A DNA stretch of 64,000 nucleotides from an uncultured Alphaproteobacteria bacterium (GTDB taxonomy: Bacteria > Pseudomonadota > Alphaproteobacteria > Micavibrionales > UBA1664). Position 1 is the first letter of the stretch. The number at the start of each line of letters is the position of its first letter. A program made the translations under genes and the position numbers. The stretch covers positions 247,053 to 311,052 of the forward strand of contig CALSUG010000008.1 in NCBI GenBank assembly GCA_943789475.1, read 5' to 3'. The notes beneath the pieces were generated by a model. That model did not search any database, was not told where the DNA came from, and saw only the letters and a list, made by a program, of their open reading frames with translations. Shown one piece after another: positions 26,723 through 30,740 of the stretch.

Positions 26723-26799
<77 letters not shown>

Positions 26800-26817
26800 C
26801 TTGCTCTTATTTTATTA

Positions 26818-26846
26818 TTGACATATTTTAAATATTTGTATATCTT
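26818..26846 (+). promoter_or_regulatory. Promoter for the 157-residue unknown gene
   Basis: TTGACA at 26818-26823, a 17-nt spacer and TATCTT at 26841-26846 fit a sigma-70-type promoter. It lies just after tRNA-Arg and about 37 nt before the ATG at 26884. Confidence 0.55.
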
Positions 26847-26883
26847 ATCTCCAACATTATATTTGAAAACAGGGAGTATTATA

Positions 26884-27357
26884 ATGACATCATCTGCACC
26901 AGAAGTTACCCAAGGATTTCATTTGTCCGTTAAACGTGATCCAGAATTGAAAACAGAGGAAACGCCAGCACAATTTAAAGATCGTATTTTAGGTGTTGTG
27001 CGTGAAATTGTTGATTTTGGATTGTATGTTGAAGATGGTGAATTGCATTATCATGATAATGTAGATCGTGTGCATCGTGCGGTTAAAACAATATCAGGAA
27101 ATGATGCGGAGGTTTTGCACCATTCTAATGATAGTGTTTTGAAACGCGCTGGAATGTTGATATCTGATTGGGGGCTAGTGGGGTGTTTGGTCAAAAACCA
27201 AACGATGGAAGAATCTCGTGCCGGTGGCCTTGTTCGAATGGGGCGTACTTTAGAACTCTTACGTGATGCGGGTTATGATAAAATGCCAGTGGCTAAGGAT
27301 AATTCAAGAATTGATATTGAGCTTTATCAAGGTGGATTGCATTTAGGATTAAGCTAA
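26884..27357 (+). CDS. Uncharacterised 157-residue protein
   Basis: I do not recognise a family. The ATG at 26884 follows a GGGAG ribosome-binding site and starts MTSSAPEVTQGFHLSVKRDP. The open frame extends upstream but that part carries the promoter, not coding sequence. The protein is charged and probably helical, with no membrane segment. The middle contains DRVHRAVKTISGNDAEVLHHSNDS and a short hydrophobic stretch (MLISDWGLVGCLVKN). It is followed 17 nt later by a small 55-residue gene on the same strand. Confidence 0.65.
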   Translation: MTSSAPEVTQGFHLSVKRDPELKTEETPAQFKDRILGVVREIVDFGLYVEDGELHYHDNVDRVHRAVKTISGNDAEVLHHSNDSVLKRAGMLISDWGLVGCLVKNQTMEESRAGGLVRMGRTLELLRDAGYDKMPVAKDNSRIDIELYQGGLHLGLS

Positions 27358-27374
27358 AAATAAGGAGTGATAAT

Positions 27375-27542
27375 ATGAAAAAAATAGTAAAATCTGATTT
27401 CGACAAATCAGGTGATGATCAAAAAAAAGAGCAAGACAATACAGGCACTCCTGTTCGAAAAACAGAGGCGAGTCCATTTGGGCGAGCAACAGGAGTGTCT
27501 GCCCAACAGTCTCTTGCAGGCCGTGGTCTGGTGCTTAAGTAA
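27375..27542 (+). CDS. Uncharacterised 55-residue protein
   Basis: An ATG at 27375, preceded by AAGGAGTGATA, opens a 55-residue frame that starts MKKIVKSDFDKSGDDQKKEQ and ends LAGRGLVLK. It is highly charged and probably disordered, with no membrane segment. The strong ribosome-binding site and the 17-nt gap to the preceding unknown gene suggest a two-gene operon. The stop lies only 7 nt before the rplJ promoter -35 box. Unknown function. Confidence 0.6.
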   Translation: MKKIVKSDFDKSGDDQKKEQDNTGTPVRKTEASPFGRATGVSAQQSLAGRGLVLK

Positions 27543-27549
27543 CTTTTTC

Positions 27550-27578
27550 TTGACATTATCTCTCTGACTGGATTATAA
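27550..27578 (+). promoter_or_regulatory. Strong promoter of rplJ-rplL
   Basis: TTGACA at 27550-27555, a 17-nt spacer and TTATAA at 27573-27578 are near consensus for the housekeeping sigma factor. The transcript would begin near 27586 and include a leader of about 210 nt before rplJ. Confidence 0.75.
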
Positions 27579-27598
27579 ACCACCCATCCTGTCAGAGA
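27561..27598 (+). promoter_or_regulatory. Inverted repeat flanking the rplJ promoter -10 element
   Basis: TCTCTGAC (27561-27568) and its exact reverse complement GTCAGAGA (27591-27598) flank the -10 box TTATAA and the likely start site. The position suits a DNA operator or a hairpin spanning the start of the transcript. No regulator is identified. Confidence 0.4.
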
Positions 27599-27703
27599 CT
27601 ATAGGGATTGGACAATTGGGTTCAATTTAATAATCCTATATAGATACGGTGGTAGAAGAATTTTTATGCGTAGTTTATTTAGACCTACGTCATCTCAGTT
27701 TTG

Positions 27704-27737
27704 AAACCAGGCAGGTATAGGTGTCTGGTTTTTTTAT
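27704..27737 (+). terminator. Attenuator-like hairpin in the rplJ leader
   Basis: AAACCAGGCA and TGTCTGGTTT form a ten-base-pair stem (one G-T pair) with loop GGTATAGG, followed by a T-rich run. It is a textbook intrinsic terminator, but placed about 60 nt before rplJ and downstream of the rplJ promoter. It would therefore give a roughly 150-nt terminated leader RNA unless antiterminated. Control of rplJL expression is the simplest reading. Confidence 0.6.
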
Positions 27738-27797
27738 TTTCAAATAAAAATATCAGGCGAATTGAAACCCTTGTAACAAGGAAAGGTTCGAATTCAC

Positions 27798-28307
27798 ATG
27801 AATCGTACTGAAAAACAAGAAGCTATCCAAACGTATAACGGTATGTTTGCGGGTTCTAATTCTGTTGTTGTTTGTGGCTACAAAGGCCTAACAGTAGAAG
27901 ACATGAATGCGTTCCGTGCTGAACTACGCAAGGAAGGTGGAAAATTTACTGTTACAAAAAATACTCTGGCAAAACTGGCTTCGAAGGATACTGATTATGA
28001 AGGTCTTAATGACCTTTTCTCTGGTCCAACGGGGATCGTTTATTCTGAGGATGCAGTGGCTGCGGCCAAGGTTGCATATAACTTTGCTAAAACGAATGAC
28101 AATCTTGTTATTCTTGGTGGTGGATTGGGCGATAAAGTGCTTGATGTTGCGGGCGTTGAGGCGTTGGCAAAACTTCCATCTTTGGACGAAGTTCGTGGAA
28201 CACTTGTTGGTTTGATACAAGCACCTGCAACGAAGATTGCTCGCGTTCTACAGGCCCCTGCACAGCAGATGGTCAATGTAACAAAGGCATATGGCGAAAA
28301 AGGTTAA
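27798..28307 (+). CDS. rplJ: 50S ribosomal protein L10
   Basis: The 169-residue protein starts MNRTEKQEAIQTYNGMFAGS and shows the L10 segment VTKNTLAKLA and the C-terminal helix that binds L7/L12 dimers. L10 anchors the L7/L12 stalk on 23S rRNA and, with L12, represses its own operon in many bacteria. The ATG follows AAGGAAAGG. A promoter and an attenuator-like hairpin precede it. rplKA, usually just upstream, is elsewhere in this window on the other strand. Confidence 0.97.
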   Translation: MNRTEKQEAIQTYNGMFAGSNSVVVCGYKGLTVEDMNAFRAELRKEGGKFTVTKNTLAKLASKDTDYEGLNDLFSGPTGIVYSEDAVAAAKVAYNFAKTNDNLVILGGGLGDKVLDVAGVEALAKLPSLDEVRGTLVGLIQAPATKIARVLQAPAQQMVNVTKAYGEKG

Positions 28308-28369: not shown

Positions 28370-28741
28370 ATGGCTGACTTAAATAAAATCGTAGACACAC
28401 TTTCAGAACTTTCAGTTCTTGAAGCTGCTGAACTTTCAACAATGCTAGAAGACAAGTGGGGCGTTTCTGCTTCTGCTGCTGTTGCTGTTGCGGCTCCTGC
28501 TGCTGGTGGCGATGCTGCTGCTGAAGAAAAGACTGACTTTGATGTTGTCTTGGCTTCTGCTGGCGCTTCTAAAATCAACGTGATTAAAGAAGTTCGCGCA
28601 ATCACAGGTCTTGGCTTGAAAGAAGCTAAAGAACTAGTTGATGGTGCACCAAAACCTGTTAAAGAAGGTGTTGCTGCAGCGGATGCTGAAGACATGAAAG
28701 CAAAGTTGGAAGCAGCTGGTGCTACAGTAGAATTGAAGTAA
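28370..28741 (+). CDS. rplL: 50S ribosomal protein L7/L12
   Basis: The 123-residue acidic protein has the N-terminal dimerisation domain ([19 protein letters not shown]), an alanine-rich hinge ([18 protein letters not shown], about 42-59), and the C-terminal factor-binding domain with [20 protein letters not shown]. It forms the stalk that recruits elongation factors. A strong terminator lies 23 nt after the stop, so rplJL is a closed unit, unlike the usual rplJL-rpoBC operon. Confidence 0.98.
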
Positions 28742-28763: not shown

Positions 28764-28794
28764 AAAAGCCTCGCAAAACGCGAGGCTTTTTTTG
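28764..28794 (+). terminator. Intrinsic terminator of rplJL
   Basis: AAAAGCCTCGC and GCGAGGCTTTT form a perfect 11-base-pair stem with loop AAAAC and a T run. Because of the A-rich 5' side it may also act on the opposite strand for the LysM-type gene ending at 28795. Confidence 0.92.
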
Positions 28795-30204
28795 TTAGAC
28801 GGTTGGTTTGTTGTAGTGACTCATGCCAGCTGATGTGTTTTCTGCGGCAATGTCTCTTGTGATTTCAAGTGTTGATGGATCAATACCAGATAAATCTTTC
28901 ATCACAATTTCTTGTCCTACAAATATTTCGTTTCTATTATCTAATCCGTTCATATCAGCTATATTGTCAATAATGGCATTTAAAACGGTATTGCGCTCGC
29001 TGTCTGGAACACTATCTAAAATAGCGGAATAAACATCGTTGTTTTCAATAATTTTTGTAAGGTTGTCACCAGATTCTATTGTATATGATGTAACGCCTGC
29101 TTCTTGATTGGCCAGAACCTCCTGCAATGTCAAGCTCGCTTCTTCTGCATGGATGCCATCGGCTTCAACAACAGCTTCTAAGCGCTCAACAGCAATAGCG
29201 TCATTCCCAAACTGTCCATCATCTACCAAATTTTCGGCAGAAATTTTTACAACTTCACTTGTATCTGGTTCTGATAGGTCGGCCTCTGAGTGCGCCATGA
29301 TTTCTTGGGCGACAGACTCAATGATTTGCTCGGCAACTTCAGGGGCTGATTCTGCAACAACAGTTGTGGGTTCTACAAGGCCTTGATCTACTAATTCTTG
29401 GCCTGCATGTGTGCTTCCCATTTTTCCATCATCAAGGGCATCTGCTGTTACTAGTGCATCTTCAGCAAGTTTTTCGATTTCAGGTGCGCCCATATCTGCA
29501 ATAATTTCTGGTGTTGCAGATGCTACATTATTTGCGGCTTCATTTAATTGTGATTCAATTGGTGAAACGATATTATCATTATCAATGCTATCGAGGGCAT
29601 GATTTCCTAGTTCATTAACATCTGGAACATCGGGCATTATGACTGGGATGTCAGATGATGCGTTTGCTGGGTTAATAATCCCCTCTAATCCTTCAGCTAA
29701 TCCTAGGCCCATTCCTACAGCGCCAGTTGCTGTCATTAGGGCTTTTGAGATTAATTTAGCGGCTTTTTCAGGATTGTTTTTAAAGCCATCTTTAAAGCTG
29801 CCATTTCCTTCCGCTTTGATGTCTTTAAAGCTTTTGACCAGGCCTCGGGCACCAAGGGCAGCCATTGCCATGCCGCCAATACCTATCGCGGAAGTTGCTG
29901 CGGTAGGTAGTGTTGTTAAGAGGACGCCAGCGGCACCAACTATTAGGGCTGTTTTTGCAGAACTAACAAGGAGTTGTGCGCCAAATCGTCTGGCATAGCC
30001 TTTGTTTTTTTGTGAATTTACAAGGCTGTCACCAAGATGGTTTATCGCTAAAACAGGCTTTGCAATTTGTTGGCCGACCTTTATTGCAGGGGCGGGCATT
30101 TTAACTTGGCTGAAGGTGGATGTTGCTTGTTGAAAGGCGCTTTTTGCTTTTTGTGCTAGGTTTTCTTCTTGGGCCTGAAAGGGGGGGATTGTTGTAACTG
30201 TCAT
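28795..30204 (-). CDS. Uncharacterised protein with C-terminal LysM-like domain
   Basis: I do not recognise the full protein. From the ATG at 30204 it has 469 residues and begins MTVTTIPPFQAQEENLAQKA; an ATG at 30225 would add seven more and overlap the upstream gene. Residues about 85-190 are hydrophobic and rich in Gly/Ala (TALIVGAAGVLLTTLPTAAT; GIGGMAMAALGARGL), like membrane or pore-associated segments. A long acidic, probably disordered region follows. The end, VTSYTIESGDNLTKIIENN to FVGQEIVMKDL, looks like a LysM domain, which normally binds peptidoglycan. No signal peptide is evident. Confidence 0.65.
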   Translation of the reverse strand: MTVTTIPPFQAQEENLAQKAKSAFQQATSTFSQVKMPAPAIKVGQQIAKPVLAINHLGDSLVNSQKNKGYARRFGAQLLVSSAKTALIVGAAGVLLTTLPTAATSAIGIGGMAMAALGARGLVKSFKDIKAEGNGSFKDGFKNNPEKAAKLISKALMTATGAVGMGLGLAEGLEGIINPANASSDIPVIMPDVPDVNELGNHALDSIDNDNIVSPIESQLNEAANNVASATPEIIADMGAPEIEKLAEDALVTADALDDGKMGSTHAGQELVDQGLVEPTTVVAESAPEVAEQIIESVAQEIMAHSEADLSEPDTSEVVKISAENLVDDGQFGNDAIAVERLEAVVEADGIHAEEASLTLQEVLANQEAGVTSYTIESGDNLTKIIENNDVYSAILDSVPDSERNTVLNAIIDNIADMNGLDNRNEIFVGQEIVMKDLSGIDPSTLEITRDIAAENTSAGMSHYNKPTV

Positions 30205-30205
30205 A

Positions 30206-30493
30206 TTAGTTAATCTTTGTTTCATCAATTAATTTTGCAACATGTGTATATGTGTTTGGAATTTTATCGTTTTTGTCGTGTGCGATAATACCAATCTCAT
30301 CTTGCATGAGAGATAAAATTAATATGTTTTCGTCAATATCTCTAAGCCTTCCTATTTCTTTTCCTTGAGTGACAAATGAAATGGAATTGTCCTGTGATAG
30401 CTTCATGACAAGATTTCCTGGTTCGATTTTTTCTTCAATAACAAATATTGGCCTTGCATATTCATCAAACAAAACGTCAGCTGTGTTAAACAT
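30206..30493 (-). CDS. Uncharacterised small protein upstream of the LysM-type gene
   Basis: From the ATG at 30493, preceded by AAAGGGAT, the product has 95 residues and begins MFNTADVLFDEYARPIFVIE. A longer frame to 30640 adds 49 residues, but its start lies in a hairpin-forming AT-rich stretch with no ribosome-binding site, so I prefer the short form. It resembles no family I know; the pattern of short beta strands (PIFVIEEKIEPGNLVMKL, ISFVTQGKEIGRLRDID) suggests a compact soluble domain. Its stop is one base before the LysM-type ATG, so they form a pair. Confidence 0.55.
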   Translation of the reverse strand: MFNTADVLFDEYARPIFVIEEKIEPGNLVMKLSQDNSISFVTQGKEIGRLRDIDENILILSLMQDEIGIIAHDKNDKIPNTYTHVAKLIDETKIN

Positions 30494-30740
30494 TTTCTTT
30501 ATCCCTTTAATCTTTTGTTCTGATCTCAGCTTAATTATATTTCCATATGTTAAAAATTGTTTTAAGAATAGATAAAATTTGAAATAAATATCGACGCGAT
30601 CTGAAAATGCCTCAGAGACGTTGAGGGTGTTTTTTTTCATGTAAAAAACACTTGCAATTGAGGGTGTTAAAGGGTAAAACGCGTATCACACGTGAGCTCT
30701 AGAGATAAAAATTGATCGTATTTAAATAGACAAAAACCGA

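Follow-up and report, generated by a model that had tools for sequence, protein, structure and literature searches.

An L10(L12)4-type leader upstream of rplJL in an alphaproteobacterium, with a proposed attenuator in which one strand pairs twice

Control of L10 synthesis in E. coli is described as translational, and a 2024 review calls its details unresolved, including how binding at a distance from the ribosome site takes effect (PMC10931766). For the B. subtilis rplJL leader, a logic of anti-antiterminator, antiterminator and terminator governed by L10 was shown experimentally; the antiterminator lies immediately downstream, overlapping the first structure by 8 nt and the terminator by 5 nt (PMC4538822). 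In these two bacteria, a single L10 site is put to use by different mechanisms (PMC4647458). No alphaproteobacterial L10 attenuator was found described in the titles and abstracts that searches of an open-licence library gave, and the main text of PMC2965389 mentions neither L10 nor rplJ.

The locus studied here lies in a stretch of 64,000 nt from an uncultured alphaproteobacterium (the window), with the leader elements and the genes rplJ and rplL on its + strand. The leader is a conserved one of the known L10 kind, its recognition is of the E. coli type, and the arrangement of its output part is new. Our main reading, reached by comparison, folding and analogy and given a probability of about 0.6, is that of an autoregulatory L10(L12)4 leader that would act by transcription attenuation in a B. 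subtilis-like manner; transcription of rplJL would probably be halted when enough L10 is present. Like the E. coli rplJL leader, that of the window has a lower stem (P1a), an AGAC internal loop, an upper stem (P2) and a UUAA loop, and its core parts come in the same order. It differs in having a terminator 66 nt before rplJ, whereas the 5' strand of the E. coli leader folds with an upstream hairpin and not into a second, long-range pairing, P1b, which was looked for in the E. coli fold and not seen. As in the B. subtilis rplJL attenuator, an L10-type hairpin comes first and is followed by an alternative pairing, in the window a candidate one that would exclude the hairpin, and by a terminator. 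Unlike that of B. subtilis, the antiterminator would enclose the leader, taking up again the L10 hairpin's 5' strand and having its 3' strand entirely inside the terminator.

The leader sits directly upstream of rplJ (27798–28307; PF00466, E=1.2e-25) and rplL (28370–28741; PF00542, E=2.1e-31), with 145 nt between the end of its core and rplJ. A strong terminator-like hairpin (28764–28790) stands 3' of rplL, and two minus-strand open frames (28795–30228, with a LysM match, and 30206–30640) come between rplJL and rpoB, which makes rplJL look like an operon standing by itself. In the region 26723–27542, directly 5' of the rplJ promoter, are found a tRNA gene and two small frames (26884–27357 and 27375–27542, neither with a match in a Pfam search), not rplK-rplA.

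The promoter at 27550–27579, already recognised as near-consensus in the original prediction, consists of a -35 box TTGACA (27550–27555), an 18 bp spacer and a -10 box TATAAA (27574–27579). It has 11 of 12 consensus bases, a score identical in the congeneric leaders L002 and L003, and from it we infer an RNA start near 27586. The same prediction had placed a perfect palindrome over this promoter. The 8-bp inverted repeat is indeed exact, and its two arms (TCTCTGAC, 27561–27568, and GTCAGAGA, 27591–27598) flank the -10 box, an arrangement that would suit a DNA-binding regulator. Repeats of this length with a spacer of up to 40 are nevertheless common by chance: when the region was shuffled 2000 times, 343 of the shuffles had one, as did 51 of 250 real tiles of 255 bases from the window, and the matching 50-base stretch of L002 and L003 contains no inverted repeat of at least 6 bp. 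Its right arm moreover overlaps the conserved leader core, which accounts for it. An operator at the palindrome found no support, given the chance frequency and the absence from both congeners, and a regulator acting there is very improbable; since the repeat is missing in two congeners that have the locus and its second arm is part of the leader RNA, it is probably a coincidence.

The core of the leader spans 27586–27652 and comprises P1a, an AGAGAC internal loop, P2 and a loop with UAA. P2 pairs UAUAGG (27600–27605) with CCUAUA (27635–27640), and the P1a 3' strand GAUACG (27643–27648) pairs with 27588–27593, a single C-C mismatch interrupting the stem in the window. The loop segment UUUAAUAA (27626–27633) contains the UAA expected beside P2 (PMC4538822); this UAA and the AGAGAC/UA internal loop, both present in the window, are the predicted kink-turn and L10-site elements. 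Downstream follows a variable arm, P3 (27653–27703).

A covariance model, R1, was built from 63 leaders, the window's genus being left out; they were taken from 88 short leaders among 109 with a clear P2 outside that genus. In a search of 72.7 kb, R1 matched the window at 27586–27652 with 39.1 bits (E=2.4e-9), pointing to a predicted binding site, and likewise L002 (E=1.1e-11) and L003 (E=1.6e-8). It also detected the E. coli K-12 rplJ leader (30.2 bits, E=1.2e-6), the next match having E=1.7. There was a single match at E<=0.01 in the window's own genome, and 160 of 241 genomes of the class had matches, counted wherever they were located and not only before rplJ. On the alignment of the 63 leaders (A3), 91.0% of the P1a and P2 cells were paired, versus 82.0% in shuffles and 26–52% when the pairing was slid, and 82 cells were altered on both sides versus 26.4 in shuffles. 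Both P1a and P2 covary in relatives, and a model built without the genus finds the core; a covariance search in related genomes had been proposed with the original prediction.

The motif itself is widespread. A sequence of the CCUGUCCGAGACUACAGG...UUAA...CCUGUAUAGAUAGG type preceded rplJ in all 46 relatives first extracted (eight of the motif anchors were typed by hand). When the search was widened, L10 was detected in 120 of 142 genomes of the order, from which 119 leaders were fetched, G141 being left out as its L10 match lacked a start. Among 73 further leaders, 71 scored above the best shuffled motif (10.1); L163 was kept despite a score of 7.9, and L191 was dropped, its contig ending 126 nt before rplJ. 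For named alphaproteobacterial loci, 77 of 80 motif scores were above 11. Judged by sequence, it is close to certain that the window's leader belongs to the proteobacterial L10(L12)4 group.

The leader-based control of L10/L12 levels that had been predicted is well supported by comparison. The further claim that it differs from the E. coli type applies to the predicted output, a terminator competing with a long-range pairing, and fails for recognition: a model built only from leaders of the order picks up that of E. coli rplJ, and the core aligns with the Rfam model RF00557 below its cut-off. A small stem, CGTAG (27669–27673) with CTACG (27685–27689), had also been put forward as a possible L10-binding element. 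The stem is present, but it lies in P3, the most variable part of the leader among the three congeners, where it is not kept, and it was discarded as the L10 site. The core at 27586–27652 and the long-range pairing of 27588–27593 with 27710–27715 had both escaped that first inspection.

This long-range pairing gives the strand CCUGUC (27588–27593) two partners. Locally it can form P1a, the base of the L10 hairpin, with a GAUAGG-type strand; distally it can form P1b with a GGRCAGG-type strand, GGCAGG at 27710–27715 in the window, and so enclose the leader. P1b is our candidate antiterminator: P1a uses the same 5' strand, and the terminator includes the same 3' strand. Both pairings covary on alignment A2, and P1a does so on A3 as well. 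When whole strands were permuted among species in 28 leaders, P1a (p=0.0014), P1b in a 9-bp version (p=0.0002) and P1b in a 6-bp version (p=0.007) were all significant. In 12 leaders of family f4, P1a was not equalled in any of 5000 permutations and the 9-bp P1b had p=0.039; the 6-bp version was not significant in f4 alone (p=0.30). The P1b 3' ends of 18 of 46 leaders were placed by eye.

In single sequences, P1b was significant in 66 of 90 leaders of f4, 2/2 of f2, 2/13 of f3, 1/1 of f5, 1/6 of f6, 0/1 of f7 and in none of five from the window's family, f1. In the window it is only 6 bp long; since it is unconvincing in the single sequences of the family, P1b rests there on homology and position, its formation in folds of the nascent RNA being a prediction. 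Outside the order, the single-sequence test was positive in 14 of 71 named loci, and GGACAGG or GGGCAGG alone was the best partner in 42 of the 71. P1b is thus not an invention of the attenuator, being found far beyond terminator-bearing leaders. A downstream strand that recaptures the P1b 3' strand was considered as a general rule and found no support: recapture at p<=0.05 was seen in 3 of 25 leaders of f1/g2, f1/g3, f2, f3, f5, f6 and f7, in 8 of 90 of f4 and in 0 of 3 of the window's genus.

Another reading is a reverse wiring, in which L10 would bind the P1b-closed form and favour readthrough, with repression exerted elsewhere. The occurrence of P1b in leaders that bear no terminator is in line with it. 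Such wiring would however be a positive feedback. In B. subtilis, tight binding needs no RNA beyond the end of the local hairpin (PMC4538822). The match in E. coli is confined to the local hairpin, and P1b was not seen in the fold of that leader. We regard this reading as improbable.

The terminator-like hairpin occupies 27704–27731 and is followed by a T-rich tract (27729–27740). Its strands AAACCAGGCA-GGTATAGG-TGTCTGGTTT form ten pairs, one of them G-U, in agreement with the ten-pair hairpin followed by Ts that had been predicted; the distance to rplJ, given then as 60 nt, is 66 nt. By our scanner the hairpin has 11 pairs and -14.0 kcal/mol, and the scan gave 6 terminator-like sites in 2400 bases versus 1.3 expected. 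An intrinsic terminator in the leader, a trait of B. subtilis-type attenuators, is in this way present at the sequence level. The sample of the genus amounts to three leaders, the window, L002 and L003; G002 and G003 gave no match. The hairpin is kept in all three (that of L002, with a 10-nt loop, was missed by an earlier scan and set by hand for folding, and the later automatic scan found it). P3 drifts among these congeners, in contrast to promoter, core and terminator, which are conserved.

The terminator hairpin encompasses the whole P1b strand in each of these three leaders, and the two Gs of P1b situated in the terminator loop are kept, as P1b would require. Since the terminator contains the entire P1b strand, the two structures would be mutually exclusive in the genus. 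Folding energies, which leave aside the kink-turn and the protein, were calculated for the nascent RNA without the terminator 3' arm: the P1b form with P2 and P3 reached -32.8, -35.6 and -34.9 kcal/mol (window, L002 and L003), and the P1a form -24.8, -25.3 and -26.8 kcal/mol, so that P1b was favoured by 8.0–10.3 kcal/mol. Once the 3' arm was added, the forced terminator had -36.8, -39.8 and -42.5 kcal/mol versus -32.8, -36.2 and -36.0 for forced P1b; the probability of P1b fell from 1.00 to 0.00–0.01, and that of the terminator was 0.99–1.00. At equilibrium the terminator beats P1b, and readthrough would therefore need P1b to be held by kinetics.

The attenuation mechanism that we propose would work as follows. 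When free L10(L12)4 is plentiful, it would bind the P1a-P2 hairpin and hold CCUGUC in P1a; with P1b blocked, 27704–27715 would remain free and the terminator would form, ending transcription near 27737 with an RNA some 150 nt long. Once rRNA has taken up the L10, CCUGUC would instead be captured by 27710–27715, and P1b together with the base of P3 would hold the 5' arm of the terminator until RNA polymerase has passed. With its double pairing, the 5' strand suggests an explanation, open to test, for the effect of binding at a distance from the ribosome site.

A different reading keeps the L10 leader and takes the terminator out of L10 control: it would cause a fixed lowering of rplJL transcription or respond to elongation factors, and L10 would act on translation as in E. 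coli. Family f4 provides a case in its favour, as terminator and P1b are compatible there in 16 of the 18 leaders folded, so that a terminator beside the core need not be switched by the core. It is also served by a small hairpin, CCTTGTAACAAGG (27769–27781), which adjoins the Shine-Dalgarno stretch in the window. The inclusion of the entire P1b strand in the terminator arm, in three of three leaders of the genus, speaks against it, as does the absence from the same three of the Shine-Dalgarno hairpin motif carried by other groups. We hold an uncontrolled terminator to be unlikely. The CCTTGTAACAAGG hairpin, directly 5' of the Shine-Dalgarno stretch, has a counterpart in L002 that is altered yet pairing (CTCTT...AAGAG) and a weaker one in L003; a second, translational layer is possible.

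Output parts were compared across the order. An automatic scan of 118 leaders detected terminators in 82 of 90 from f4, in 3 of 3 from the window's genus and in none of the 25 others; among 590 shuffles it gave 20. By eye, a terminator is visible in six of the eight f4 leaders that the scan missed, and an earlier, looser scan had given one weak match in f3 (-5.1 kcal/mol). A Shine-Dalgarno hairpin motif of the CGGAG...CCGTG type with a GTG start, a pattern composed after the sequences had been seen, was carried by 22 of the 22 leaders scored in f2, f3, f6 and f1/g2; elsewhere the counts were 0/77 of f4, 0/3 of the window's genus, 0/1 of f5 and 0/1 of f7. This scoring covered 104 of the 118 leaders, the other 14 (13 from f4, and L024) having no ATG, GTG or TTG at the predicted place. 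Shine-Dalgarno pairing estimated by folding did not separate the groups (means of 0.57 in f4, 0.60 in f3, 0.56 in f6 and 0.42 in the window's genus). Pairing of the start codon separated them partly, with 0.18 in f4 and 0.08 in the window's genus, 0.64 in f3 and 0.59 in f6, but only 0.14 in f1/g2.

An upstream promoter-like pair was present in 77 of 90 f4 leaders, 3/3 of the window's genus, 1/1 of f1/g3 and 1/1 of f7, and in 0/13 of f3, 1/6 of f6, 1/2 of f2, 0/1 of f1/g2 and 0/1 of f5; a control stretch had one in 13 of 108 cases. From the group counts of terminators, Shine-Dalgarno motifs and promoter-like pairs, the output platform goes roughly with rplJ having its own promoter. The leaders of f2, f3, f6 and f1/g2 have the same core in those examined and, unlike the window, have no terminator at the cut-off and carry the GTG-start hairpin motif. 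Those of f4 resemble the window in core, own promoter-like pair and terminator, and differ in that the terminator abuts P1b with a fixed geometry (overlap mostly 2–3 nt, range 0–10). As the f4 terminator and P1b form together in 16 of the 18 leaders folded, the switch proposed for the genus does not explain f4. This placement of the terminator on the end of P1b is seen in L007, L013, L018, L028 and other f4 leaders.

The geometry and the family's other two genera, used in place of a tree, would imply two independent joinings of a terminator, one in the genus and one in f4. A broader interpretation, which we put forward tentatively and at somewhat less than even odds, is that of a second type of L10 attenuator with a wiring of its own: the hairpin's 5' strand would itself be the antiterminator strand enclosing the leader, with its distal partner inside the terminator, and the same sensor would have been joined to terminators twice in one order, with full overlap in the window's genus and by abutment in f4, and in other groups to Shine-Dalgarno hairpins, a choice that would go along with the presence or absence of a promoter of rplJ's own. 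It appears from the comparison that close relatives couple one and the same protein-sensing RNA either to transcriptional or to translational output, which makes the order a natural comparison for the exchange of expression platforms. Within f4, L150 (genome G080) has no visible terminator but a CGGAG...TCGTG stretch preceding its GTG start, perhaps a platform change inside the family. Outside the order, terminator-like matches between motif and rplJ were seen in five of the 71 named alphaproteobacterial loci with the motif (L084, L099, L103, L108 and L117).

At gathering scores, an Rfam search of the window returned tRNA only, as did a search of 20 of 30 relative loci; membership of the L10_leader family (RF00557, gathering score 44 bits) was thus rejected at the cut-off, and RF00557 was not among the Rfam matches listed for the window below the gathering score. 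In the comparison with known L10 leader models suggested earlier, RF00557, given 231 bases, aligned over its full length to the window, terminator included, with 17.9 bits (E=0.62). It gave 34.8 bits against the relative L028. In 55 genomes of the order, weaker RF00557 matches stood directly before rplJ in seven. An L10 sensor can in this way be recognised, at sequence level, in an order of Alphaproteobacteria where RF00557 fails at its cut-off. The one match above the cut-off in the 55 genomes lies beside a second, distant L10-like gene in G029 (C228, 11302–11917; 26% identity, two in-frame TGA), which is perhaps a contamination of the assembly.

By E-value, the best Rfam match of the window was RF02858, Arrc08 (27553–27766, 21.4 bits, E=0.0012). 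The E. coli K-12 rplJ leader (L200, 1239–1445) likewise had its lowest Rfam E-value with Arrc08 (37.0 bits, E=1.1e-8; gathering score 219). Arrc08 is called an Actinobacillus sRNA, and its source paper places it between genes inside an operon (PMC4986893); instead of an sRNA acting in trans, it may be an L10 leader of Pasteurellaceae.
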